From a bacterium (GTDB taxonomy: Bacteria > Zixibacteria > MSB-5A5 > WJJR01), in contig JAKAKI010000084.1 of NCBI GenBank assembly GCA_021813505.1, positions 1 through 50,123 of the forward strand: 50,123 nucleotides of DNA. The letters run 5' to 3'. Below the pieces are notes generated by a model, which saw only the letters and a program-made list of their open reading frames with translations, was not told the origin of the DNA and made no database searches. Positions 20,229 through 42,612 of the stretch are shown piece after piece. The position numbers and the translations under genes are program-made. Every line of letters starts with the position of its first letter. The first letter of the stretch is position 1.

Positions 20229-21944
20229 TCATTTCAACAGCAGCATCTTGCGCGTCTCTTCTGAGGAGTTGGTGCGCAAGGTGTAGAAGTACACACCGGA
20301 GGTCACGGCGTTGCCGTCGTTGTCGCGCCCATCCCATTCGATCCTGTGGCGCCCGGAATCGAGATCGCCGGAGAACAGATCACGAACGATCTGGCCGAGA
20401 ATGTTGTGGATGCGCAGTTCGATGCGCGATGCCGAGCGCAGCGAGAAATTGATGGTGGTGCTGGGATTGAAGGGATTGGGGTAGTTCGCTTCGAGTGTGT
20501 ATTGGGCCGGTGTTGCACTTCCGGCCAGTTCCTCGACACCGGTGGGGCTCTGCACGGCCGCACGAATCATGAAGTTGCCGAGGTCGAAGTAGTACCATCC
20601 GTACGCATTGTCGTACCAGACCGATCGGTTGGGACTGACCACCGTCGTGTCGGTCGCCACTCCGGGCAGAGACGGGGAACTCGGCTGCCAGTAGAGGACG
20701 ACGAAGAAGCTCCCTGAGGTAATGACCGGCTGGGCGCCTTCGGGGATGATCACATCAGCCCATCCGGTGTTCGTGTCGGCAGAGACCACAAACGGTCCGG
20801 CGATCACATCTCCGGGAGGCCCGCCGGGATCGGCCTGGATCGCAAGGACCAAGGAGGTTGTGTCGTTCAGGAGAACGCGCAAGTGCGAGATGACCGCGGG
20901 ATAGCTTGACGGAGTGAAGTTTACGCCGAAGGCGTTGCCATCGTAAACGTCGGATTCAATCCAGAATTGCTCGGGAACGCCGTCATCGTATTTGATTTCG
21001 TGTCCGGGTTGAACAGTGTAGCGGAATGGAGATGCCAGGCCTTCGGGCGGGTCGGTCGCCGCGTTTTGCGCCGGTGAGTTGTCTTTTACCTGAACGTAGT
21101 ACTTCACATTGGTGCCGGCAGAGAAGGCGGGGATGAAACCGATGCATGAGCCGCTGCCAAGCGTCATGGTGGCGCTCTGGTAGCTGGCGCCGCCGTTGGT
21201 CGAGTAGCGAATCACGGCACTGTTGATGCCGTTGAGATCAGAGATGCTGGCCGTCACCTTCACCGGTCCATCGGCAGAGAAGGCTGTGCCCACCGGCATA
21301 TGCCAGACGGTCGGGGCCGTCATATCGGCGCCGTACAGCCGCACGTACGCCCTCAACACCATGTCCATGTTTGACGCCGCGACCCATTCGGCGCCGGGGG
21401 CGTGATAGGTCGTCCGCAGCGATCCGCCATCGTCATCGAACGTCGGATGCGGGGTGTTCGCCTGCATGATCTTGAGAACGACATGGAAGTCGGAGTTGCC
21501 GACGTCGACTGGTGCCGGGAAATCGACACGTTGAACACTCAGGTCGCCGGAGGCATAGATCATGAACGGCCCGGCCGTGAGCGTCCCAGGAGCTCCGGTG
21601 CCGTCGTCGCCGTAGATCGATACCGAAAGCGGTCCGGCGGGCTGGAAAGTCACCAGCGTGATGTACACGAGCGAGCAGGCCTGTGTGGGTGTGAAACGCA
21701 CTCCCCACTCAGCGTTGGCGATATCATCGACCGGATCGTAAACCATGGGGCCGGTGTCGTAAGCCAGCAGATACTCGCCGTCGTTGGCACCGGCAGAAAG
21801 CTGGACGGGCGCGATGGGCTGGGGTGCGTCCAGGTGTTTGACGGGAAGAGATTTGCTGCTAAACGTGCGTCCATCAGCGGCTCCGACAAAGAGCATCAGG
21901 CCCAGAAGGACAAGACAACTTAGGATGACCGCTGCTTTTCTCAT
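20229..21944 (-). CDS. Secreted two-domain protein with C-terminal sorting domain
   Basis: The 571-aa product starts at ATG 21944 behind GAGGAA and has a signal peptide (RKAAVILSCLVLLGLMLFVGAADG). Two related beta-rich domains follow. Domain one is about residues 45-205 (YDTGPMVYDPVDDIANAEWGVRFTP...). Domain two is about 310-470 (IKYDDGVPEQFWIESDVYDGNAFGVNFTP...). Both share the order G-V-F-TP, a short strand with PGGPPG/GTGAPG, and a GPF.V...W.D..P unit. An Ig-like linker (residues about 215-310) separates them. The C-terminus is a type A sorting domain (NYPNPFNPSTTINFSL...GVYFYTLRT...KMLLLK). I do not recognise an enzymatic motif; adhesion or glycan binding is possible. It has its own near-perfect sigma54 promoter. 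Confidence 0.85.
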   Translation of the reverse strand: MRKAAVILSCLVLLGLMLFVGAADGRTFSSKSLPVKHLDAPQPIAPVQLSAGANDGEYLLAYDTGPMVYDPVDDIANAEWGVRFTPTQACSLVYITLVTFQPAGPLSVSIYGDDGTGAPGTLTAGPFMIYASGDLSVQRVDFPAPVDVGNSDFHVVLKIMQANTPHPTFDDDGGSLRTTYHAPGAEWVAASNMDMVLRAYVRLYGADMTAPTVWHMPVGTAFSADGPVKVTASISDLNGINSAVIRYSTNGGASYQSATMTLGSGSCIGFIPAFSAGTNVKYYVQVKDNSPAQNAATDPPEGLASPFRYTVQPGHEIKYDDGVPEQFWIESDVYDGNAFGVNFTPSSYPAVISHLRVLLNDTTSLVLAIQADPGGPPGDVIAGPFVVSADTNTGWADVIIPEGAQPVITSGSFFVVLYWQPSSPSLPGVATDTTVVSPNRSVWYDNAYGWYYFDLGNFMIRAAVQSPTGVEELAGSATPAQYTLEANYPNPFNPSTTINFSLRSASRIELRIHNILGQIVRDLFSGDLDSGRHRIEWDGRDNDGNAVTSGVYFYTLRTNSSEETRKMLLLK

Positions 21945-22012
21945 CGCAAATTCCTCGGCAACAGGTGAGAACCACAACCCGGATCGCGCCGGGATCGCTG
22001 AGAGACAACGAT

Positions 22013-22027
22013 GCAAAGAAAGTGCCA
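22013..22027 (-). promoter_or_regulatory. Sigma54 (-24/-12) promoter upstream of the 571-aa secreted protein
   Basis: The minus strand reads TGGCAC-TTTCT-TTGC, an exact match to the sigma54 core with the required GG-N10-GC spacing. Transcription would start near 22001, leaving a 57-nt leader before ATG 21944. The activator at 32857-35787 is the only sigma54 regulator gene in the window. Confidence 0.7.
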
Positions 22028-22267
22028 CAGGCCGGGATTTTCCGGACTGCCACTGTGACACCGGAATCCGGCAGTCGAACTCCGTGAAGCATCAATGGTT
22101 GGACGGCGGGGATTTCACCGGAGTCCGTGACCGTTGCCTCGCGGGAAGTGCAAGTTCATTCACATCCTCTGTAAACCGGGGTACACAAGCAGAATTGGCC
22201 GGCGGGCGTTGTCAGCGCTGCGACGTGGGACCTGCGGATTCACATGGAAGGCTTTAGTGCCACCATA

Positions 22268-28166: not shown

Positions 28167-31100
28167 TCAGAAGTTGACGCCCAATCCGAGCCGAATCTGG
28201 CGGCCGGACTCCCAATTTCGCGGGCTGGCCTGTCCGACATCCATGTACGGAATGCCATGGAAGTTCAGGCCCGTGGTTGGAACTCCAGTTTCGGCGTAAA
28301 CCGAGGCGATGTTGCGCGTATCGAAGACATTATTAACCCAGACTTCAAACGTGAAGTTCAGCGACGAAGCCCGGAAGTCTTTGTTGAACCGAAGATCGAC
28401 ATTGCTCGTGGCCGGCAGGCGCATCGAGTTGGTCAAAGGATCGTTCCCTGGGACGACGAGGACGCCGGGATGCAACTTGCCCGGTGTGTACGGATATCCC
28501 GAGCCGAACTGCCAGAAGATATTGAGGCCGAAGTTATCCGGCAGTGTCATCCCGAACAGCTTCGGATGATCCTTGGGGGGAACGCGCAGGTCGACGACCA
28601 TCGTGATGGCGTGGCGCTGATCCCAGTCGAGCGGGAATTCCTGAATCGTCACCTTCTTGGCGTAGAAGTTGTCGAAGAAGTCCAGCGAGTTAGCAGATGC
28701 CTTGCCGTACGCGTAAGCAAAGTTGTAAGTCAGAGTTCCCGACACGTAATTGCCGTACTTCTTTTCCAATTCGACTTCCAGACCGCGGGCACGGGCGTAG
28801 TCGCGATTCTCGTAGAAGTTGCGGATGGTCTGCACCGACCCGGTGGCCTGGTTCGACGCGTTGACGCGACCGAAGTCATCCTTGTAGAAGCCCTGGACCG
28901 AGAGCACGTATGTCGGCGACAGCATGTACTGAATACCGAACTCGTACTGAATCGTCTTCGCGTAGTCGAGATTGACATTGCCGATGACGCCGGTGGAGCT
29001 GGAGGATTGTGTGGCGCGGCGGTACATGTATGTCATTTCCGGCAATTGGTAGAAGTGGCCGTAGTTGAAGAACACTTTGGCTTTGTCGGAGATCGGATAA
29101 GAGAACGCAATGCGCGGCGCGAACTTGTCGCGATACTGTTCGGTCACGATGCGATTGCCGAATTCATCCGTGGTGCCGGCACTCGTGATGTCCGCGTTGT
29201 TCGACTGAATGAAGTAGTCGTACCGGAATCCCAGATTGGCGATCATCTGGCCGTATTCCATCTTGTCACGGACATAGAAGGCGCCGGACTTGGGCGTCTG
29301 GGTGTAGAAGTCACGGACGTTGCCACGTCCCTGATAGGGGCCATCGTCTACGAAGTTGAGATTGTCATACGGCAAGTATGCCTGGCTGATTTCGGACTGT
29401 CTCAGGCGATACGATGAGTATTTGAACCCAAGCTTAACCTCGTGCTCGCGCCGCACCTGGCTGGTCAGATCGATGTCCACCGCGTTGGTGACCACGTCGC
29501 GCTTGTTCCAGAGGATGTCCTTATCCCACCCGGTGTCGAAGAAGCCGTCTTCAGCGTCCCACTGCCCGTTGCCGTTGCGATCATAGAAGGGCTCGCCCAG
29601 CCTGAAGTAATTGGGATTGGTCGACCATTTCCCCGAAACGTCGCCGCCCTTGTCAAAGACACCATTGCCGTTGAAATCGCGGAACGGAACACCCGGAACC
29701 CAGGAATCACTCGGGCCGTCGTATTTGGAATTGTACGACAGGTCGGTGAAGGGCTCGCCAAAGGGATAACCCAGAAGGCTGGCATCGCGCACGCCGTTGC
29801 GGTTGATGTCGACAAACGGCTCGCCCAGCGAAATGTCACCGTCGAGATAAGACTCGGCCTTGTCATTGCTGGTTGAGCCGTAACTCATATCGCGCTCGGG
29901 ATCGTAACGGCCATTGGCATTCCCATCAAGCGTGATGACATCGGCGTCGCCGATTAGGACCGGATCTTGGGAGGCGAACTGCAATGTCGAGTCGCCGGCG
30001 AACACCGTGAAACCATCATAGGTTCCATTCCCGTTGCGATCGACGAAGGGTTCACCCGAGTCCATGTCAAAGCGGCCATTGCCGTTGAAATCGTAGATCA
30101 GCTCATCGCCAACAACCCGATAATCCTGATTTCTATCATTGGCAATGTCGCCCATGTCGAAGAAGTTGTCCGGGTAGAGGTCCACCCACTCTTCGGGGGC
30201 ATCATACCAGCCGTTCTTGTTCACGTCCAGGTAGTGGTCCGCGACCTTGGTGATATCCACGCCCACGCCAGGGGTCGGGAACAGGAACTGGTTGGGATTC
30301 ATCGTGCCGCCCGGTGTTGTGGGATCACCAGGTTTTTGCTGGTATTGGCGATGGAATTTTGAAATCAGAATCTGATAGAACGTGGTCGGGCTGAGATTGT
30401 GGGTCCAGGTCAGACTAAAACGATCGTTGATATCCTCCACCCACGGAAGGCTGCCGGTATTGTAGCGGTATTGCCAGGCGTTGTAATCGCCCCAGCTCCA
30501 GGGAATCGAGCGCTCGTACCCGCGGCTCGCGATGGCATTTAATCGGATGTCGGGGCTGACGCGGCAGGTGAGCTTGAGCAGCATGTTGCCGTTGTTCGAC
30601 TGGCGGTCCGTCACCTTGATGCCGAGGAACTTTGTCTGCCGGGTTCTCATCGGCAGAAGATTGGTGGCGTACTTGTCCAGAGAAGCGTACGTGTTGGTGC
30701 GGTCAAAGTCGAGGTTGACAAAGTAGCTGACCTTGTCGGCAAAGCTTTCCAAACCGATCAAAGGCAGGAGTTTCCGAGTGATCAAAGGTTCGGGGCCTCC
30801 GACGTTGAATTCGAGGCGGTTGAACTTAAAGGAATACCGGTCCAGATTGTGCGTGCCGAAGCCATCGGTGAAATACTCGATGTGACCGCGGGTGACGTTG
30901 CGATCACCTTCCTTGGTGGCAACGTTAATGATACCTGAAGTCGCTTCGCCGTATTCGGCCGACCAGCCGCCCTTGATGATTGAAATGTTCTCGATTTCCG
31001 TGCCGGAGAGGTTGAGGGATTCGGTCGCGCCGCGTCCGCCCAACGGGTCCTTCATCGAAACACCGTCCACGGTGTAGAGCACTTCCTCAGAGCGGCCGCC

Positions 31101-31619
31101 ACGGATGTGGAAGCGGTCATTACGGACGGTGACACCGACTTGAGACTTGAGAATGTCGGCGACGTTGGTCACCGGCATGCTCTTGATCTTCTCAGCAGTG
31201 ACGTCGCGCTTGGTGGTCGCCTCGTCCATCTGAATCATCTGCCGTTCGCGGGTGACGATGATCGGCTGGAGTTCGATAAGGCTCGGCTCAAGGTCGACTT
31301 TCAGGGTCGTGGTCTGGTCCGGCCGGACGAGCACGGCTTGAGTGATGACCGCAGTGTAACCGACCATGCGCACTTCGACGGTGTGGTCACCGGCGGGAAC
31401 GGGGGCAATCTGGAATTTGCCGTCCACGTCAGTGAGAACACCCATCTTGAGGTCGGAGATCTGGACCGCCGCCCCGATGAGTGCTTCTTTGGTCTTCTTG
31501 TCGATAACCTGGCCCGCAATCTTGCCGGTCACACCGGCAAGAGCCGGAGCGGCCATGAGCAGGCTGAGCGACGCGGCCAGCCAGATCCTTCTGCAGAAAC
31601 CTCTTGCGCTTGGTGACAT
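28167..31619 (-). CDS. TonB-dependent receptor with inserted Ca-binding-like repeats
   Basis: This outer-membrane receptor likely imports a large or scarce substrate with energy from TonB-ExbBD. The 1150-aa protein has a signal peptide ending ALA-G near residue 28, then a carboxypeptidase-regulatory-like domain (KIAGQVIDKKTKEALIGAAVQI...). The plug (MPVTNVADILKSQVGVTVRNDRFHIRGGRSEEVLYTVDGV) and a beta-barrel ending in GLGVNF follow. Between residues about 464 and 690 lie at least six D-x-N-x-N-G-x-x-D type loops (for example DFNGNGRFD, DRNGNGTYD, DFNGNGVFD). Start ATG 31619 has GGAGG eight bases upstream; the upstream ATG at 31634 is less likely. It heads a four-gene operon. Confidence 0.92.
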   Translation of the reverse strand: MSPSARGFCRRIWLAASLSLLMAAPALAGVTGKIAGQVIDKKTKEALIGAAVQISDLKMGVLTDVDGKFQIAPVPAGDHTVEVRMVGYTAVITQAVLVRPDQTTTLKVDLEPSLIELQPIIVTRERQMIQMDEATTKRDVTAEKIKSMPVTNVADILKSQVGVTVRNDRFHIRGGRSEEVLYTVDGVSMKDPLGGRGATESLNLSGTEIENISIIKGGWSAEYGEATSGIINVATKEGDRNVTRGHIEYFTDGFGTHNLDRYSFKFNRLEFNVGGPEPLITRKLLPLIGLESFADKVSYFVNLDFDRTNTYASLDKYATNLLPMRTRQTKFLGIKVTDRQSNNGNMLLKLTCRVSPDIRLNAIASRGYERSIPWSWGDYNAWQYRYNTGSLPWVEDINDRFSLTWTHNLSPTTFYQILISKFHRQYQQKPGDPTTPGGTMNPNQFLFPTPGVGVDITKVADHYLDVNKNGWYDAPEEWVDLYPDNFFDMGDIANDRNQDYRVVGDELIYDFNGNGRFDMDSGEPFVDRNGNGTYDGFTVFAGDSTLQFASQDPVLIGDADVITLDGNANGRYDPERDMSYGSTSNDKAESYLDGDISLGEPFVDINRNGVRDASLLGYPFGEPFTDLSYNSKYDGPSDSWVPGVPFRDFNGNGVFDKGGDVSGKWSTNPNYFRLGEPFYDRNGNGQWDAEDGFFDTGWDKDILWNKRDVVTNAVDIDLTSQVRREHEVKLGFKYSSYRLRQSEISQAYLPYDNLNFVDDGPYQGRGNVRDFYTQTPKSGAFYVRDKMEYGQMIANLGFRYDYFIQSNNADITSAGTTDEFGNRIVTEQYRDKFAPRIAFSYPISDKAKVFFNYGHFYQLPEMTYMYRRATQSSSSTGVIGNVNLDYAKTIQYEFGIQYMLSPTYVLSVQGFYKDDFGRVNASNQATGSVQTIRNFYENRDYARARGLEVELEKKYGNYVSGTLTYNFAYAYGKASANSLDFFDNFYAKKVTIQEFPLDWDQRHAITMVVDLRVPPKDHPKLFGMTLPDNFGLNIFWQFGSGYPYTPGKLHPGVLVVPGNDPLTNSMRLPATSNVDLRFNKDFRASSLNFTFEVWVNNVFDTRNIASVYAETGVPTTGLNFHGIPYMDVGQASPRNWESGRQIRLGLGVNF

Positions 31620-31931
31620 TGCCAAAGCCTCCATTATGCCTGGCCCGGTAAAGTTCCGGCGGATTCCAAGAACTGAGCGATCATGTCGGTGGAAAGGACT
31701 TCCAATCGCATTAAAACCATGTTCTCCCTCTGCAGGCGAAACCAAAACGCCCACATTAAGTCAATGATCCACAGACCGATGCCGCTAAGTCAAGCAAAAA
31801 GCCCCCATAAGTGTCTTAACGCGCTGCCGCACCTCCCGCCTTTCACGGGCATGGAGTCGGCGGTTGCGACCGCCGCATCCAATCGCTACTACTCGCCAGC
31901 CTGAAGTCTATTCCCGCCTGCGATGGAAAAA
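31620..31931. other. Gap between the TonB receptor and lipoate-transferase genes
   Basis: No convincing promoter or repeat-family member is visible in these 312 nt. TTGACT occurs near 31780 on the minus strand without a matching -10. A hairpin lies at 31858-31875. Confidence 0.4.
31858..31875 (-). terminator. Hairpin after the lipoate-transferase-like gene
   Basis: CGGCGGT pairs with ACCGCCG around a 4-nt loop, 57 nt beyond the stop at 31932. No T-tract follows, so it is a weak terminator candidate. Confidence 0.3.
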
Positions 31932-32768
31932 TTATCGGTGATGATGCCATTGTTCCGCCTCCCAACGAGCGATTCGGGAGACTACGGCGGGCGATTTGGG
32001 CCAATCGAACATGTTTGGACGCCATTCGATACCAAGATTTTGTGACAGCCCGGTCTTCAGCATCTCGGCTGCTGCGAGCCATTGGCCTTCCGAAGAAGAC
32101 CCTGGCATACTCCACGCCCACCAGTGCTGGCCGATTGCGGACGGATCGGCAGCCTCAGGCCAAAAGCAGTCGCCGGCGCCGGGCGGCGACAAATAGATGG
32201 TTCCGTGCTGCAGAGATGCGTTCGCCAGGTTGCACTGGGCGGCGGCCACGGCCTTGAGTCCGTTCACGGTGATTTCGAATCGCGTGAGCGACGCGCCGCA
32301 TAAGCCATGCGCCGTTAAGATGTCATCGGTACCGCGGGACTTGCGAGACGGATTGAGCCGGGCTTCAAAGCCGGCCAGCGACAGGCCGGCCATCAGGCCG
32401 GCGGCGATTCGCGCGAAGATCTCAAGTTTCGGCCCGGCAGGATGGCGTCCCATCATGTCGTGTGAAAGTGCGGCGGCGTAATTGAGTTCGTGCTGATGCA
32501 GCAGAGCGCCGCCTCCCGTGGGCCGGCGCACCCAGTCCCATCCTTGCTGCCGGCATCGTTCGGGATCAACAACAGACCTCCAGGACTGGTGGCGGCCAAT
32601 GGTAACTGCCGGTGGCGACATGCGGTAAAACCGGAGGTAGGCCGAGTTGGGATTCCGATTGCACAGGTCGGCGAGCTCGGTGTCGATGGCCATTTGGGTG
32701 GCGGCATCGGCGACGATGAGTGGAATATAGTCCCAAGTCTTCGGCACCACTGATACGACCGCTTCCAT
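31932..32768 (-). CDS. Lipoate-protein ligase / octanoyltransferase-like protein
   Basis: The 278-aa cytoplasmic protein belongs to the biotin/lipoate ligase catalytic superfamily, which attaches lipoate or moves octanoate onto 2-oxoacid dehydrogenase and glycine-cleavage proteins. It shows VTIGRHQS, RRPTGGGALLHQHELNYAAAL (the lipoyl-binding loop) and NGLKAVAAAQCN...QHGTIYL, where the conserved Lys is kept but the usual G-S before A-Q is changed to A-A. Start ATG 32768 lacks a clear ribosome-binding site. LplA, LipM and LipL types cannot be separated from sequence alone. It is tucked between the secretome block and the sigma54 regulator on the same strand as both. Confidence 0.85.
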   Translation of the reverse strand: MEAVVSVVPKTWDYIPLIVADAATQMAIDTELADLCNRNPNSAYLRFYRMSPPAVTIGRHQSWRSVVDPERCRQQGWDWVRRPTGGGALLHQHELNYAAALSHDMMGRHPAGPKLEIFARIAAGLMAGLSLAGFEARLNPSRKSRGTDDILTAHGLCGASLTRFEITVNGLKAVAAAQCNLANASLQHGTIYLSPPGAGDCFWPEAADPSAIGQHWWAWSMPGSSSEGQWLAAAEMLKTGLSQNLGIEWRPNMFDWPKSPAVVSRIARWEAEQWHHHR

Positions 32769-35818: not shown

Positions 35819-36163
35819 CTACTTGCGAATCAATCTTCCTGCCTTGACCTTGTTGAGAGTGAGTCGCGCTTTTTCCAACAGGAAGAAGAGCCCGCCGGTC
35901 ACCCATTTTGATCCACCAATCGCGGCACTGGGGCCCAGAATTGGCGGGAGTGCCACCGAGGTCAATCTCCCTCGGACCGAATCAGGTGGAGGCACAGTCG
36001 TCCCATCATCCCATGGATGTCCGCTGTCGCCAGCGCCATCGGTTCGAAGCCCTCCACGCGATAAGTCCTTGGAGTTGGGGTCAACGGACCAACCTGTGGC
36101 GGCGGGCAACATCACCAGCATCACGGCCATCAGGATGGCCAACATCAGTCGCCCTTTTGCCAT
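35819..36163 (-). CDS. Small exported protein of unknown function
   Basis: The 114-aa product starts at ATG 36163 after the strong ribosome-binding site GAGGAGG. A signal peptide (MAKGRLMLAILMAVMLVMLPAATG) leads into a Gly/Asp/Pro-rich mature part (DLSRGGLRTDGAGDSGHPWDDGTTVPPPDS) and a second hydrophobic or basic tail (LPPILGP...GGLFFLLEKARLTLNKVKAGRLIRK). I do not recognise the family. Its position as the first gene of an operon with the sigma54 activator suggests it may feed the activator a signal, or simply report the state of the envelope. That is inference from position only. Confidence 0.7.
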   Translation of the reverse strand: MAKGRLMLAILMAVMLVMLPAATGWSVDPNSKDLSRGGLRTDGAGDSGHPWDDGTTVPPPDSVRGRLTSVALPPILGPSAAIGGSKWVTGGLFFLLEKARLTLNKVKAGRLIRK

Positions 36164-36300
36164 AGAATTCGCCTCCTCACAAATGGCGCGCCGGGACATT
36201 GCGCCGACCGGCCGCCGGTCTTTCTACATTGGAGATACGTCTTGTTCAACTCTGATAGTCCTCGAAAGTGCGTTTACGCCTCTCGGTGTCTTGCCTGACC

Positions 36301-36330
36301 ATAAGTTCAGCGTAACTACTGATTTGTCAA
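36301..36330 (-). promoter_or_regulatory. Possible sigma70 promoter for the small-exported-protein/activator operon
   Basis: A perfect TTGACA (36325-36330) faces leftward, but the best -10 (ACTTAT, 18-nt spacer) is poor. The leader to ATG 36163 would be about 130 nt. Confidence 0.35.
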
Positions 36331-36339
36331 GAGATTTCG

Positions 36340-36351
36340 TGAGTTAACTCA
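36340..36351. promoter_or_regulatory. 12-bp perfect palindrome in the divergent control region
   Basis: TGAGTTAACTCA lies 10 nt upstream of the leftward TTGACA and between the leftward and rightward sigma54-type sites. It is a candidate operator or enhancer site for the activator's Fis-type helix-turn-helix. Confidence 0.4.
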
Positions 36352-36379
36352 GGATTCTGCGCCGCAAAGTTTGCGAAAA

Positions 36380-36394
36380 GCAAATTCTTGGCCA
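36380..36394 (-). promoter_or_regulatory. Sigma54-like site facing the activator operon
   Basis: The minus strand reads TGGCCA-N5-TTGC, keeping the essential GG-N10-GC spacing but with CA in place of AC. It would give a leader of about 205 nt to ATG 36163 and could allow the activator to raise its own level. Confidence 0.4.
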
Positions 36395-36555
36395 GTTTCG
36401 ACCTTGAAGGGTGTATGCCAGTTTCTGGCTGGAATCGTCATTTGGGCCAGATGGATTCGAAGCGATGGACAATGGGGCTCCTCCATCATCCAATGAACAG
36501 TCGGCGGTTGCAGGGAATGCTCCACTCTGCTCCGGCGCCCTGGGCCAAAGCACCA

Positions 36556-36565
36556 TAACGCGTTA
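36556..36565. promoter_or_regulatory. 10-bp palindrome upstream of the rightward sigma54 promoter
   Basis: TAACGCGTTA is centred about 60 nt before the -24 element at 36621, a plausible distance for an enhancer-binding site. It could also be chance; only one copy was noticed here. Confidence 0.3.
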
Positions 36566-36620
36566 AATGAGAATGATTTAGCGAAACGCGAGCTGACCAA
36601 GATCGCCCGACCGTCGCTTG

Positions 36621-36635
36621 TGGCACGATCCTTGC
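36621..36635 (+). promoter_or_regulatory. Sigma54 (-24/-12) promoter of the M6-protease operon
   Basis: The sequence TGGCAC-GATCC-TTGC is an exact match to the sigma54 core. Transcription would begin near 36647, leaving about 40 nt before ATG 36687. The gene of a sigma54 activator lies on the opposite side of the same control region. Confidence 0.75.
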
Positions 36636-36686
36636 GATCCCCCCCTTCGGTCCGAAGACAGTCTAGCAACGAACCACGGGGGAGTG

Positions 36687-38702
36687 ATGGGGTCCAGGGG
36701 GAGAATACATCAAGGAATCAGGCGGAATACCCGCACCGGCCAGCGGGTCGTTTTTCTCGCTCTGATAATTATCGCGGGATGCGGTCTGAAATCACCGCAA
36801 GCGCCGCGCTGGACGGTCGCTCTCAAGGTTCCGATCGCATCACGTTCATTCGACCTTCCTTACATAGTAGATCACGCCGGTGTCGATGGGTTGCAGTGGC
36901 TGGGCGACTCGGGCGCTGCGTTTCGCATTGAGCGCAATCTCGACACCGTGCTGGTCGGCGACAATCTCACGGTTGCGCCGGTATCAACATCACGGCAATT
37001 CACGGTCGGGCAGTTCGATATCGCGACCGACACGCGCACGAGCACAACCCTCGCGCTGGCTGATCTGTATCCCGGTCCGGTCGGGTTGATCGCGGCGTTT
37101 TCGGCAGAGACCCGCCGCACACTGCCATCCAATCCGGGATGGAGCGCGGTCGAGATTGTGAACGGCCAGGCGCGTTCTTCGGTATCCAATCAATTGGGAA
37201 TCACGCTCGACTCGGTGCAGATCACGCTTTACAACCACGGGGAGAATTCCCCGCTGGTGACGATTGCCATTGGCGGTCCAATCGCGACGGGCGATTCGGC
37301 AGTGGGCAGCGGTCCGATCCGGCCAGGCGCTGTGGCGCCATCCTGGGATTTCGCGCTGCGGTTTTACACCCCGGGCGGGACGATCCTGAGCGCGGACAAT
37401 AAGTATGTGAGTGTGTCGGCGGAGCTGCCGACGGGCCTTCGCGTCGCGAGTGCAACCGGTGTCATTCCGGCCTTCACACGGGATTTCGCGGATTCGATTT
37501 CGATTTCCTCAGAACATGCGGTGTATGCTGCGGCGTTTCGTTCGGGAATCTTGAGGATGACGTGGGGTAACACTACTCCCCTGCCATTCGATGTTCAATG
37601 GACATGTGGCAATCTGACACGGGCGGGAGTTCCGTTAGGCGGGCACACGACGGTTGGCGCTCTGGGTTCAACGGACGCCACGATTGACCTCGCCGGGTGT
37701 GAATTCGCCGGCGGAGGCTCAGCGTCACAGGCGCGCATTGCCGCCACCGTTCAGACCGTCGGTTCATCCGGCACCACCGTCACATTGCACAGCACCGACG
37801 GCGTGACCGTCACGACCGCTGCGCGAGATCTGGTTTTGGAATCCGCCACGGTCGCACTGGCGAGAACGGTTCAGTCGGTGGAGTGGAAGTCCTTCGCACT
37901 GAATCTTCCCTCCGGCCTGGGTGACATCGGATTGGACGGCGGGACGTGTGTACTTTCGATCACCTCTTCCCTGCCCTGGAGCGGACATCTTTCGGGACAG
38001 GTGTCCAACGAGCGGTCCACCTCGATTCCGATCAACGGGACGATCTTGCCGGCCACGGACGGACATCCGGTCCAGACCAACATTCCGGTGCCGGGGATCG
38101 CTGCACTGCTGAATCCACTGTCACGCAACATATCGTTTACGGCGACGGTCGAATACGGCGACGGCGCCACGGTCGGGACGGTCCACGCAACCGACTATCT
38201 GCTGCCGAAGGTCATTCTCACATCGCCCGCAGACATCTTCGCCGACTCGGTGGCGCTTCAGGGCGACGTTTCGCACGCCGACCTGAGCGGGAGCAGCAGT
38301 TCCGACCGGCGTGGCCGTCTGGTGCGCGGCGACGTCGAGATCACGATCACCAATCATCTGCCTTTGGGCGCCAAGCTGACACTGAAACTGGCTGGTGACT
38401 CCACGAGCTTGAGCACGTCGCCGCGCATGACGATTGGTCCAGCGACGATTGCCCCGGCGCCCATGAACGCCCAGGGCCAGGCGACTGGCGATTCGACTAC
38501 GACTTTGCGTTTTTCGATCCACCCTGAAGACGTCAGTCTGTTCGAACAGGATTCGATTTGGGCGGTTGGCGATGTGATGCTGATCGGTCCGGGCGGCGGG
38601 GTACCGTCGCGGATCAGCGCGTCCGACCGCATCACCTGGAATGCCTCGGCTCGCCTGGAAGTGCGCACCGAAGCAGCGATGTCACCGGAGGAATCGCGAT
38701 GA
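36687..38702 (+). CDS. Large beta-rich lipoprotein, first gene of the sigma54 operon
   Basis: The 671-aa protein starts at ATG 36687 after a G-rich stretch and ends where the next gene begins (ATGA). Its leader (RVVFLALIIIAGC) ends in a lipobox with Cys at about residue 32. The mature part is rich in Thr, Ser, Val and Gly with many short strands (for example VALKVPIASRSFDLPYIVDHAGVDG), typical of surface or periplasmic beta-sandwich proteins in FCB bacteria. No enzyme motif is seen. The open frame upstream of 36687 crosses the promoter and is not used. Co-translation with the beta-barrel gene is likely. Confidence 0.8.
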   Translation: MGSRGRIHQGIRRNTRTGQRVVFLALIIIAGCGLKSPQAPRWTVALKVPIASRSFDLPYIVDHAGVDGLQWLGDSGAAFRIERNLDTVLVGDNLTVAPVSTSRQFTVGQFDIATDTRTSTTLALADLYPGPVGLIAAFSAETRRTLPSNPGWSAVEIVNGQARSSVSNQLGITLDSVQITLYNHGENSPLVTIAIGGPIATGDSAVGSGPIRPGAVAPSWDFALRFYTPGGTILSADNKYVSVSAELPTGLRVASATGVIPAFTRDFADSISISSEHAVYAAAFRSGILRMTWGNTTPLPFDVQWTCGNLTRAGVPLGGHTTVGALGSTDATIDLAGCEFAGGGSASQARIAATVQTVGSSGTTVTLHSTDGVTVTTAARDLVLESATVALARTVQSVEWKSFALNLPSGLGDIGLDGGTCVLSITSSLPWSGHLSGQVSNERSTSIPINGTILPATDGHPVQTNIPVPGIAALLNPLSRNISFTATVEYGDGATVGTVHATDYLLPKVILTSPADIFADSVALQGDVSHADLSGSSSSDRRGRLVRGDVEITITNHLPLGAKLTLKLAGDSTSLSTSPRMTIGPATIAPAPMNAQGQATGDSTTTLRFSIHPEDVSLFEQDSIWAVGDVMLIGPGGGVPSRISASDRITWNASARLEVRTEAAMSPEESR

Positions 38703-39952
38703 AGATGAAGCGTATGTTGGTGACGAGCGCGGTGCTGGCGGTCCTGCTGGTGTCGGCGACCGGTTCGGCCAACGCTGATCCGATGACACCCCTATTCCTG
38801 GGGACAGCGGGGGTAGGCACGATTTTGGGCACCGGGCTCGACGCGGCCTTTGGCAATCCGGCCCAATTGGGAATGACACAATCCGACGGATTCCACCTGC
38901 GACTGGTCGGGATCGGTGCCGGCATCGGGAATAACAGTGTTGGATTCGCCGAGTATCGCAAATACAACGGCGCTGATTTGAACGATATGGACAAGGCCGC
39001 GATCCTATCGAAAGTTCCGAGCGACGGGCTGCGTTTGCGCACGGATGGCGGCGCGTCGGCAATGGCGGTTTTGATCGACGGCTGGAGCGTGCACGCGGAT
39101 GCATTCGCGGTGGGACGCGGCCAGTTTGACCGTCAGATATTCGAATTGCTCTTCTACGGCAACGCCGATCAGTCCAACTGGAATTTCACGAATACGAGCG
39201 GCGAAGGAATGGCCGGTGGGCAGATTGTGCTGTCGCACGGCGGCCGTTTGATGCAGGCGTTCGGACATGATCTGTTCGGCGGATTCTCGGCCTCCTACAT
39301 CCGCGGACTGTATTACGCCAAGTCGGGTGAAACACAGGCGACGCTGGCCACCCAGGAAGGCGGGCTTTCGGGCGCCGGACTCGCGAATTGGACAACCGCA
39401 GAGGGCGGAAACGGATTCGGACTGGACCTGGGGCTGGCGATGCCGATCGGGCCGCGTTGGACCGCAGGGTTGAAGTTCGAGCATGTCGTGAATCTGGTCA
39501 AATGGACGCGCAATGTGCGCGACCGGCAGTACGAGGCGCACTTCGACGATCTGACTGTCGACAACTACGACGATTCGCTGGTGGTGACCACCGAAACGAG
39601 CCGTCCGGGCGAGTCGTTCACCCGCGGACTGCCACCGGCAATACGCGCGGGGGTCGGTCGGATCGGGACGTCGTTCAGCGTTGCGGCGGAAGTTGCCGTC
39701 GCGTTGCGCGATGGGCTGGGTGTTTCGACCAAGCCATCAGTGGCAACCGGCTTGGAGTACAGCCCAATTCATCTGCTGCCGTTGCGACTGGGTGCTTCGG
39801 TGGGCGGCGAGAGCGGATGGTCGATCGGTTGGGGCGCCGGACTGCGCCTTGGGCCGGTGCGTTTGGATACGGGCATGAAGATCGATCAAGGCGTCTGGGT
39901 GGGCAGTGGCCGCGGGATGAGCGGATCGCTGAGCCTGGATCTGTCACTTTAG
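38699..39952 (+). CDS. Outer-membrane beta-barrel protein (DUF5723-like)
   Basis: The 417-aa protein overlaps the preceding stop as ATGA and has ribosome-binding site GGAGGAA. A signal peptide (MKMKRMLVTSAVLAVLLVSATGSANA) precedes DPMTPLFLGTAGVGTILGTGLDAAFGNPAQLGMTQSDGFHLRL. This N-terminal GNPAxLG pattern occurs in FadL/PorV-like and DUF5723 barrels of FCB genomes. The remainder alternates Gly/aromatic strands and ends SGSLSLDLSL. It may be a passage or anchor for the adjacent protease and lipoproteins; the family name is a best guess. Confidence 0.75.
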   Translation: MKMKRMLVTSAVLAVLLVSATGSANADPMTPLFLGTAGVGTILGTGLDAAFGNPAQLGMTQSDGFHLRLVGIGAGIGNNSVGFAEYRKYNGADLNDMDKAAILSKVPSDGLRLRTDGGASAMAVLIDGWSVHADAFAVGRGQFDRQIFELLFYGNADQSNWNFTNTSGEGMAGGQIVLSHGGRLMQAFGHDLFGGFSASYIRGLYYAKSGETQATLATQEGGLSGAGLANWTTAEGGNGFGLDLGLAMPIGPRWTAGLKFEHVVNLVKWTRNVRDRQYEAHFDDLTVDNYDDSLVVTTETSRPGESFTRGLPPAIRAGVGRIGTSFSVAAEVAVALRDGLGVSTKPSVATGLEYSPIHLLPLRLGASVGGESGWSIGWGAGLRLGPVRLDTGMKIDQGVWVGSGRGMSGSLSLDLSL

Positions 39953-39963
39953 GGGGAATGGAC

Positions 39964-41661
39964 ATGTTACACCGCGTGAAGACACTGATCGCAGGACTGG
40001 GACTGGGGATTCTGGCTTTGAGCGCCAGCGGGCGGCTGTTCGACGCCGACGCGATGCCGCCGCATCCGGACCTGGCGTTGCGCTCGCCGCAAATGGCCGA
40101 GGCCGTCGACTACTACAATGATCTGCGTGCGTCTTTCCCGCAGCGTGGCATCGACCAGCCGGGGGGCGGACGGGCCGCCGGTGCGAATCTGGCCGGAATA
40201 TTCAACATGCTCGCGGTGTGCATCGATTTCTCGGATGATACATCGTCGACGGCGGCGGCGGACTTTGACACGCTGATCTTTTTCCAGCAGCCGGGATCGG
40301 TCTGGGATTACTACCATCAGATTTCCTACGGAACGTTGTCGATGGAAACCCTGGTTCTCCCTTCCGCGATCGGCTGGAAACGGGCGCCCGGGACATACGC
40401 CAGTTATGTCGGCGCGAATTACGGCATGGGTTCCTACCCGAACAATTCCCAGAAGATGGTGGAAGACATTGTTGATTCGCTCGACCCCTACGTCAACTTC
40501 GCGGACTATGACAACGACGGCGATGGATTTGTCGACGGGCTGGTGATCGTCCATGCCGGCACGGGCGCGGAGTGGAGCGGCTCGACGTCCGATATGTGGT
40601 CGCACAAATGGGGAATCATGCCGAGGCTGCGCGACGGCGTGTATATCAGCAGCTATTCAGTTCAGCCGGAATTCTGGTTTGCCCCCGGGGACATAACGAT
40701 CGGCGTGTATGTTCATGAAATCGGCCATGTCCTTGGCCTGCCGGATCTTTACGACACCGACAACAGTTCGCGCGGTGTGGCGCGCTGGTCGGTGATGGGC
40801 AGCGGCTCGTGGAACGGTTCGATGGGAAATACACCGGCCGGACCGGATGCCTGGAGCCGGGTGCAGTTGGGATTTGTGGTGCCGACGGTGATCACCAGTT
40901 CGGTTGTGGGTGCCACCGTGCCTCGGGTTGAGGACTCGGCAAAGATCTATCGCGTGTGGCCAACAGCGCCTCCGGGAAGCGAGTACTTCCTGGTCGAGAA
41001 CCGCCAGTTGACCGGATACGATGCGTATCTGCCTGCCGCCGGAATCCTCATCTGGCACATTGACGAAGCCCAGGCAAATGAGACACACGAGTGGTATCCC
41101 GGCCACACAGCCAGCGGGCACTATCTGGTCGCCCTGGAGCAGGCCGACGGGCTTTGGGAGTTGGAGCAGAATATTAATAACGGAAACGCGGGAGATCCTT
41201 TCCCCGGCACAAACGACAGACGGACGTTCTCGGATGCCTCTACCCCATCATCGAAAGCATACGCCGGGACGGCAACCTACGTCACGGTGACGAACATCTC
41301 GAATTCAGCGGCGGTGATGACCTGCGATTTCCAGACATCACTGGGCACGGATGTTCTTGAGGGTGAAGACGGCGGCGCAGCGGTACCGTCACTGTACCTG
41401 GTCAATAGTCCCAACCCATTCAATCCCGCCACCGAGATCAACTACGGTTTGGAGCGTGGCGGCCGGGTGGACATCGATTTGTTCGATATTCTGGGACGGC
41501 ACGTGCGGACGCTGGTTGGCGAAACGCAGTTGGCGGGATCGCATGAGATTATCTGGGATGGAACCGACCAAGCCGGAGATCCGGTGAGTACCGGCGTCTA
41601 TTTCGCGCGGTTGAGTTCCAGTGGGCAGTCAAATGTGCGCAAGATGGTCCTGGTCCGTTAG
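39964..41661 (+). CDS. Secreted M6-family zinc metalloprotease, second copy
   Basis: The 565-aa protein (start ATG 39964, seven bases after AGGGGGA) has a signal peptide (MLHRVKTLIAGLGLGILALSASG). Its M6 catalytic domain includes FNMLAVCIDFSDDT, the Ca-loop DYDNDGDGFVDG near residue 180, and the zinc site HEIGH (first His at residue 251), then GLPDLYDTDN and SVMGSGSWNGS. The C-terminus is a type A sorting domain (NSPNPFNPATEINYGL...GVYFARLSS...RKMVLVR). It lacks the amidotransferase-like insertion of the 941-aa paralogue at 14111-16936. Regulation by sigma54 is inferred from the operon promoter at 36621. Confidence 0.92.
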   Translation: MLHRVKTLIAGLGLGILALSASGRLFDADAMPPHPDLALRSPQMAEAVDYYNDLRASFPQRGIDQPGGGRAAGANLAGIFNMLAVCIDFSDDTSSTAAADFDTLIFFQQPGSVWDYYHQISYGTLSMETLVLPSAIGWKRAPGTYASYVGANYGMGSYPNNSQKMVEDIVDSLDPYVNFADYDNDGDGFVDGLVIVHAGTGAEWSGSTSDMWSHKWGIMPRLRDGVYISSYSVQPEFWFAPGDITIGVYVHEIGHVLGLPDLYDTDNSSRGVARWSVMGSGSWNGSMGNTPAGPDAWSRVQLGFVVPTVITSSVVGATVPRVEDSAKIYRVWPTAPPGSEYFLVENRQLTGYDAYLPAAGILIWHIDEAQANETHEWYPGHTASGHYLVALEQADGLWELEQNINNGNAGDPFPGTNDRRTFSDASTPSSKAYAGTATYVTVTNISNSAAVMTCDFQTSLGTDVLEGEDGGAAVPSLYLVNSPNPFNPATEINYGLERGGRVDIDLFDILGRHVRTLVGETQLAGSHEIIWDGTDQAGDPVSTGVYFARLSSSGQSNVRKMVLVR

Positions 41662-41711
41662 GGGTGAGTATGCGGGCGAGGAATTGGCGAGCAGGGAACA
41701 GGAGAGAGAAC

Positions 41712-42467
41712 ATGAAGAAAGCAACGGTGGTGGCGGCGGTGATTGCAATCACAGGTCTGGTGGCCGGCGGATGCAGCAAGAGTACCCCTTTACAACCTGT
41801 CGGAGGCGCAACGCTCGGATTGCGGATTGTCGTCAGCACAACCCAGGACGACGGCTCGATCACCAATACGAACGACATCAAAAACCACACTCAAGGGATG
41901 TCCATCCTGCCAGATAACGGGATTGACTCTGTGACCCTGAATTCGGGACTGGTGATGGTCCGGTCGTTCAAATTTGTCACCACGGGCGGAACGCCGGTCG
42001 ATACGAACATCACGGCGGCGGATGAGACACGCGATATCCAGGATCCGGCGGTCCGGTTCCAGGGTCCGTATGTGCTCCCAACCACCGGTGCGGCGCTGGA
42101 CGTGGCGCCGACCTCGATTGAGGTTGGATTCTATCCGGAGTTGCGTTTTGTGATTCAAAAAGCGAGCGCCCAGGACAATCTTGGCGGACACCAGGAACTG
42201 ATCGGGTCGTCACTGATGATCAGCGGTGTCATCTGGCGCGGCGGGCAGGGAGCGAGTTTCAGCTACGTAACCGATTATACATCTGAAATCGCGGTCGGCG
42301 GCGTATTCAATGTGGGAAGCAACGTGAACGGAACTTTGACGCTGACCTTCAACGCCGGACGGTGGTTCCGTGCGGGTCGTAGCTGGGTCGATCCAACCAA
42401 TCCGGCCAACAACCTGCAGATCACGCAGAACATCCGCAATAACGTGTCGGCGAAGTTGGTGAGCTGA
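41712..42467 (+). CDS. Small lipoprotein ending the sigma54 operon
   Basis: The 251-aa protein starts at ATG 41712 after GGAGAGAG. It has the leader MKKATVVAAVIAITGLVAGGC with lipobox AGGC. The mature part looks like a beta-sandwich (LGLRIVVSTTQDD...RSFKFVTTGGTPVDT...SYVTDYTSEIAVGGVFNVGSNVNGTLTLTFNAGRWF) and has no recognised motif. It follows the M6 gene by 50 nt and precedes a strong terminator, so it is the last gene of the four-gene operon. Confidence 0.8.
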   Translation: MKKATVVAAVIAITGLVAGGCSKSTPLQPVGGATLGLRIVVSTTQDDGSITNTNDIKNHTQGMSILPDNGIDSVTLNSGLVMVRSFKFVTTGGTPVDTNITAADETRDIQDPAVRFQGPYVLPTTGAALDVAPTSIEVGFYPELRFVIQKASAQDNLGGHQELIGSSLMISGVIWRGGQGASFSYVTDYTSEIAVGGVFNVGSNVNGTLTLTFNAGRWFRAGRSWVDPTNPANNLQITQNIRNNVSAKLVS

Positions 42468-42573: not shown

Positions 42574-42612
42574 ACGGGGCATCCTGCAGACGCAGGATGC
42601 CCCGCGTTTTTT
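42574..42612 (+). terminator. Rho-independent terminator of the sigma54-controlled operon
   Basis: CGGGGCATCCTGC pairs with its exact complement around AGAC, followed after GCG by six T. It lies about 110 nt beyond the stop at 42467 and fits the end of the operon starting at 36687. Confidence 0.9.

Follow-up and report, generated by a model that had tools for sequence, protein, structure and literature searches.

The stretch of DNA analysed here (the window) is a contig of 50,123 nucleotides (JAKAKI010000084.1, assembly GCA_021813505.1) from a 3.9 Mb genome in 95 contigs, assigned to Candidatus Zixiibacteriota. Zixibacteria are an almost uncultured phylum. Positions 35819-42467 of the window carry two back-to-back gene groups. 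One codes for a lipoprotein, an outer-membrane beta-barrel-type protein, an M6 metalloprotease and a second lipoprotein, and is preceded by a sigma54-type promoter. The other, transcribed in the opposite direction, starts with an open reading frame (ORF) for a small exported protein, which is followed by the gene of a sigma54 activator with TPR, GAF, AAA+ and Fis-type helix-turn-helix (HTH) domains; the activator gene falls just outside the range given above (Table 1). A first-pass annotation described the locus as a self-contained circuit switching on proteolysis. The most unusual feature of the locus is the PWD motif of the small protein together with its class-wide pairing with the activator. 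The evidence consists throughout of sequence, chiefly from metagenome-assembled genomes, and the locus counts given below represent non-independent events.

Table 1. Features of the divergent locus and its neighbourhood (window coordinates)
Feature	Position	Strand	Evidence or remark
TonB-dependent receptor with CarboxypepD_reg domain, next neighbour	28167-31754	-	Pfam; position kept in most class loci
LplA/LipB-like ligase gene, conserved, next after the activator gene	31932-32768	-	Pfam LplA-B_cat, 9.8e-22; position kept in most class loci
TPR-GAF-AAA+-Fis sigma54 activator, 976 aa	32857-35787	-	Separated from the small ORF, which precedes it, by 31 bp
Small exported protein, 114 aa	35819-36163	-	ORF with Shine-Dalgarno sequence; signal peptide predicted
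TTGACA, -35-like box of the small-ORF/activator operon	36325-36330	-	Nearly all loci have TTGAC ahead of the small ORF
Candidate operator for the promoter of the small ORF and activator, palindrome CGCAAAGTTTGCG	36363-36375		CGCA-N5-TGCG
Degenerate copy of TATGGGA-N4-TCCCATA, AATGGGGCTCCTCCATCA	36471-36488		Centre -141 from the start of the -24 element; 5 mismatches, not significant alone
-24/-12 sigma54 promoter of lipA-barrel-M6-lipB, TGGCACGATCCTTGC	36621-36635	+	Exact consensus
lipA, opening gene of the operon, for an all-beta lipoprotein of 671 aa	36687-38702	+	Lipobox IIIAGC; AlphaFold2 model all-beta
DUF5723 outer-membrane beta-barrel-type protein	38699-39952	+	Pfam PF18990, 3.6e-12
M6 metalloprotease with T9SS-type/FlgD-Ig C-terminal tail	39958-41661	+	TIGR03296, 1.5e-59
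lipB, closing gene of the operon, for a lipoprotein of 251 aa	41712-42467	+	Lipobox LVAGGC; kept in several order members
Strong Rho-independent terminator of the operon	42575-42604	+	13-bp stem, then T run

lipA was detected in 33 of the 38 genomes of the class. A fold assignment for its product by Foldseek was dropped, as the search returned low-TM all-beta matches only and no convincing PDB match. The M6 protease has an intact zinc site (HEIGH, of the HExxH type) and matches the structure of immune inhibitor A (4yu5, 7.8e-15). Its tail scores 28.2 bits against TIGR04183 (cut-off 23), which is a sequence match to the sorting domain alone. The TIGR03296 domain, the HEIGH site and the TIGR04183 tail are shared with other M6 (immune inhibitor A) proteases bearing tails like those of the type IX secretion system (T9SS), from which the present case differs in that the gene lies within a class-wide sigma54 operon together with genes for a lipoprotein and a DUF5723 barrel. 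The four-gene operon named in the first-pass annotation is borne out by its domains, lipoboxes and terminator. In loci outside the order, a by-eye reading of the DNA upstream of lipA suggests that its divergent neighbour often starts like an HTH_11/WYL-type regulator (L089-L092, L094, L097-L100, L102, L104).

The -24/-12 element of the operon is weak evidence when taken alone, since the window contains a second perfect site and TGGCAYN5TTGC is found 21 times in the whole genome against 15 times in the reversed control; genome-wide enrichment of such sites was rejected on these figures. What makes the element significant is its conservation across related loci. Within 330 bp upstream of the operon, an element scoring at least 17 of 19 was found in 29 of the 32 operon loci surveyed (two of them with M6-lipB only), compared with 0.3 expected from shuffles. 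The perfect element reported earlier is both exact and conserved. rpoN, on which the proposed circuit depended, is present in one copy in the window genome (PF04552, 7.4e-59) and in 37 of 38 relatives. Some 60 bp separate the second perfect element of the window (22013-22027, minus strand) from the exported protein that follows it, which has a T9SS-type tail (20229-22061 region). Six of the 21 genomic matches come from a repeat of about 130 nt which resembles a miniature inverted-repeat transposable element, has inverted ends CTAGARGCYATCCCAAAATTCA ... AATTCGATTTTTGGGATGAGTTCTAG, contains TGGCAYN5TTGC and occurs on other contigs of the genome (L187, L188, L198, L205, L206, L207).

Each sequence feature tested places the divergent activator in the sigma54 activator superfamily. 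It matches Sigma54_activat (1.2e-66), TPR_12 and the Fis-type HTH_8 (4.9e-11) in Pfam, and its sigma54-contact loop is intact: GAYTGA in the window protein, GAFTGA or GAYTGA in all 25 activators examined. Nearly all orthologues are 936-984 aa long, and TPR_12 and TPR_MalT were matched in each of the 21 searched. The GAF domain is sub-threshold in the window protein and was recognised through orthologues (PF01590 in nine and GAF_3 in four of the 21). The AlphaFold2 model (pLDDT 88.8) consists of a TPR superhelix and an alpha/beta domain, the latter agreeing with a GAF domain between the TPR and AAA+ parts. No receiver domain was matched in the domain search. The layout given in the first-pass annotation, with a small exported protein and a receiver-less TPR-GAF-AAA+-Fis activator, was thus recovered, directly for the TPR, sigma54-activation and HTH parts and via orthologues for GAF. 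NCBIfam equivalogs cover only the AAA+/HTH part of the protein.

With the sigma54 enhancer-binding proteins of the NtrC/NorR/PilR superfamily the activator shares an AAA+ domain with GAFTGA and Walker motifs, a Fis HTH and the presence of rpoN in the genome. It differs from them in having a dedicated exported partner and in its input side, which combines a long TPR array with GAF and lacks a receiver. In its fold the TPR domain resembles TPR domains that bind peptides or other ligands, the matches including MalT domain III (TMt 0.76, the best TPR-region match by TMt among the matches listed), NprR (0.69), Rap-CSF (0.67) and complexes of LGN with peptides. Unlike the activator described here, MalT, a STAND ATPase carrying a LuxR-type HTH, acts with sigma70 and is not known to have an exported partner.

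The small protein comprises a predicted signal peptide, the segment GHPWDDG (residues 48-54, with the HPWD codons at 36019-36008 on the minus strand), an acidic linker, an amphipathic stretch and a basic tail. It has no match in Pfam or NCBIfam. The ORF evolves as a coding sequence, because the substitutions separating it from the G001 orthologue, its closest relative, are distributed 10/5/20 over codon positions 1/2/3; 17 codons differ synonymously and 12 nonsynonymously. Among the nine genomes of the order the protein is variable apart from GHPWDD. The exact string DGHPWDD was rejected as a class-wide motif, being confined to the order; the class-wide core is PWD. All 43 testable loci have this core, as [HNDQYG]PWD and counting one HAWD and one HPWE, in the exported small ORF that immediately precedes the activator gene. 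The proteins are 87-128 aa long across loci. In most families PWD lies a few residues from the predicted end of the signal peptide, and the architecture that follows (acidic linker, amphipathic stretch, usually a basic end) is found class-wide. The N-terminal hydrophobic segment is strong in every protein scored, with a Kyte-Doolittle (KD) maximum of at least 1.77, as judged from hydropathy only.

Pairing of the two genes extends far beyond the order. When public genomes were scanned for the TPR-GAF portion of the activator, 45 loci were returned, labelled mostly Candidatus Zixiibacteriota (or Zixibacteria/GN15), the remainder bearing generic or other names, including two 'Calditrichaeota/Calditrichota'. 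The scan used one peptide pattern, and the module may also occur outside Zixibacteria. In all 43 testable loci, which represent many families, an exported small ORF directly precedes the activator gene.

The pair also appears to have a control region of its own. Of 47 loci, 42 have CGCA-N5-TGCG ahead of the small ORF, where 0.25 would be expected, and the distance from this palindrome to the 5' T of TTGAC is 44-45 nt in all eight order loci scored and nearly fixed throughout the class. This palindrome was considered as a genome-wide regulon mark and rejected, because the copies elsewhere that were read were mostly intragenic. The ligase and receptor genes downstream of the activator were evaluated as its sigma54 targets and rejected too, there being no supporting -24/-12 element or palindrome. 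Several acidic repeats resembling DxNGNGxxD are found in the extracellular part of the TonB-dependent receptor (28167-31754, minus strand).

All nine genomes of the order have the pair and the M6 operon side by side in divergent orientation; in two of them the pair still stands beside M6-lipB while lipA and the barrel gene are missing. This adjacency suits an arrangement in which binding of the TPR-GAF activator to the control region between the two operons directly switches on the lipA-barrel-M6-lipB promoter, with a signal coming from or through the small exported protein. The perfect CGCA palindrome is 230-300 bp upstream of the -24 element, inside enhancer range, the GAFTGA loop is intact and rpoN is present. 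Nevertheless, we consider such direct activation unlikely. The CGCA palindrome tracks the small-ORF promoter, keeping a fixed spacing to the -35-like box. Beyond the order, M6-operon promoters lack this palindrome, for which reason it was rejected as a class-wide upstream site of the operon. Moreover, the operon promoter persists along with a different palindrome in families that lack the activator.

This other palindrome, TATGGGA-N4-TCCCATA, is found above the -24 element with a mean of 3.0 mismatches compared with 5.5 in shuffles, its centre being mostly 90-145 bp upstream. Five other members of the order have it with 1-3 mismatches at the matching position (-121 to -140). Both promoter and palindrome are also kept in families f4, f11 and f15, all without the TPR-GAF activator. 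Since they persist there, the M6 operon probably answers to an activator other than its neighbour, and, as far as can be read from these comparisons, control of the protease operon is older than that neighbour. Conversely, outside the order the pair exists with no M6 operon nearby, in f10 and f13 even with no lipA at all. Of the circuit proposed in the first-pass annotation, the sigma54 promoter, rpoN and the intact activator stand, as does the co-occurrence of the genes within the order; the role of the pair as a self-contained switch of this operon is not supported, given the persistence of promoter and palindrome elsewhere. Cross-control via the intergenic region that the two operons share is possible in this single order.

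Up to nine copies of TATGGGA-N4-TCCCATA were found per genome, with the reversed control nearly empty. Where the palindrome precedes minor-pilin operons, genes of exported proteins or that of a lipoprotein, a -24/-12-like site follows 80-140 bp beyond it; in G030 a copy of the palindrome is located 175 bp before an M6 gene. Most simply, this would be read as a sigma54 regulon that covers surface and secreted proteins throughout the class and whose activator is not the neighbour. As minor-pilin operons share the site, this activator is probably of the PilR/NtrC type. The set is arranged like the PEP-CTERM/PrsR system, in which a sigma54 promoter and an upstream site are common to many exported-protein genes served by one enhancer-binding protein (PMC1569441), and differs from it in the site, the organisms and the cargo. 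At the TATGGGA loci L356, L358, L365, L361, L369, L359 and L366, -24/-12-like sites are found beyond the palindrome in most cases. One exported protein downstream of a TATGGGA site looks by eye like a C25-type protease.

The pairing of a small exported protein with a TPR activator is repeated in a shorter TPR-AAA+ subfamily of about 745 aa, one member of which is also encoded in the window genome. An exported small ORF lies directly upstream of these paralogues in 18 of 20 loci, with PWQ, PWG or PWD in 11, and two pairs inside one genome have different motif variants. On the receptor tree the motif variant requires 6 changes, compared with 17.9 in shuffles. The variant therefore appears to follow the receptor subfamily, which is what a matched pair would show. 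We speculate, quite tentatively, that these pairs might form a family of peptide-signalling systems in a diderm phylum. The exported PWD proteins would then be the cognate ligands of sigma54 activators under TPR control, and the variants PWD, PWG and PWQ would tell apart the several independent pairs of a genome. The opposite view takes the small protein for an exported or structural protein that has nothing to do with the activator beyond sharing its operon. It seems improbable to us, given that the adjacency is kept in 43 of 43 loci across many families while other neighbours change, and that the pairing recurs with paralogous activators whose motif variants go with the receptor subfamily.

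The best explanation of the whole locus, to which we would give an even chance, assumes two separately controlled back-to-back units. Unit 1, the lipA-barrel-M6-lipB operon, would be a member of the class-wide sigma54 regulon of surface and exported proteins, with a non-neighbour enhancer-binding protein binding TATGGGA-N4-TCCCATA about 100-140 bp above its promoter. Unit 2 would be a signalling module of two genes, coding for a Sec-exported PWD protein and a cytoplasmic TPR-GAF-AAA+-Fis activator and presumably co-transcribed from a sigma70-type promoter with the CGCA-N5-TGCG operator. The PWD segment would serve as the signal, or as a periplasmic partner reporting a signal. The conserved TPR array would recognise PWD directly or indirectly, and recognition would either relieve or impose control on the AAA+ domain, leading to the opening of sigma54 promoters elsewhere. 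In our reading, unit 2 is an apparently undescribed module that resembles RRNPP systems in its logic.

The resemblance to RRNPP systems (Rap-Phr, NprR-NprX and PlcR-PapR of Firmicutes) consists in a small protein with predicted Sec-type export, encoded directly beside a TPR protein with an NprR/Rap-like TPR fold. The RRNPP signature has five points, and its known members are in Firmicutes (PMC10075063). When the module was compared with this signature, TPR content and gene adjacency agreed, receptor length did not, and both peptide length (114 aa, the propeptide range being 10-100 aa) and export (judged from hydropathy only) were borderline; the module was therefore not filed as RRNPP. The receptor is a sigma54 AAA+ activator of about 980 aa rather than an HTH or Rap protein of 250-500 aa, and the module, known here from sequence alone, comes from a diderm phylum and has a nearly invariant motif. 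A full RRNPP-like cycle in a diderm, in which the small protein is secreted, cut to a PWD peptide, re-imported and bound in the TPR groove to switch the activator, would account for the Sec-type ORF adjoining the TPR receptor in 43 of 43 loci, the motif at the mature N-terminus in most of them, the TPR similarity to NprR and Rap and the TonB-dependent receptor as a conserved neighbour. Our confidence in this cycle is low, considering the invariance of the motif across the class, the 976-aa receptor, the Firmicutes origin of the known systems, and the fact that no importer or processing site was identified.

Alternatively, the small protein may stay in the periplasm or at the membrane, sense the envelope state or a ligand via PWD and signal across the membrane with no peptide import. 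The amphipathic stretch and mostly basic tail conserved after the acidic linker, the strong N-terminal hydrophobic segment and the conserved envelope neighbours fit such a co-sensor. We regard it as possible though doubtful, as the hydrophobicity of the C-terminal stretch falls short of what a membrane span requires, leaving no clear route across the membrane: only 1 of 73 hydropathy entries, which include repeated loci, reaches 1.6. A two-span membrane hairpin was rejected on the same grounds.

Several observations weigh against the two-unit explanation. No target sigma54 promoter was found adjoining the module outside the order. Several of the ~745-aa paralogues (L302-L321) have an altered GAFTGA loop (GAFTNA, GSFTGA, GTFTGA), so that sigma54 contact may be weaker or lost in these proteins, and common descent alone could be the source of the clustering of motif variants on the receptor tree. 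The near-invariance of PWD across the class is unlike most quorum pheromones, which diversify. Finally, the genus of the window combines a perfect CGCA palindrome with a degenerate TATGGGA palindrome (5-6 mismatches), and the M6 operon may thus have been taken over locally by the TPR activator.

In the open literature (most subscription papers being outside this scope) we found no description joining sigma54 activators, TPR and exported small proteins or peptides. If the interpretation of unit 2 is true, Zixibacteria carry a recurrent two-gene signalling module which the searched literature and family libraries do not describe, and which would allow a direct test of TPR-receptor peptide sensing in diderms feeding sigma54 transcription. 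Should the PWD proteins be cognate ligands, RRNPP-like logic would reach beyond Firmicutes and sigma54 transcription would gain a dedicated peptide input. The putative TATGGGA-N4-TCCCATA/sigma54 regulon, which agrees with a proposed role of sigma54 in controlling the bacterial exterior (PMC3162934), would offer a handle on how Zixibacteria co-ordinate pilins and secreted proteases.

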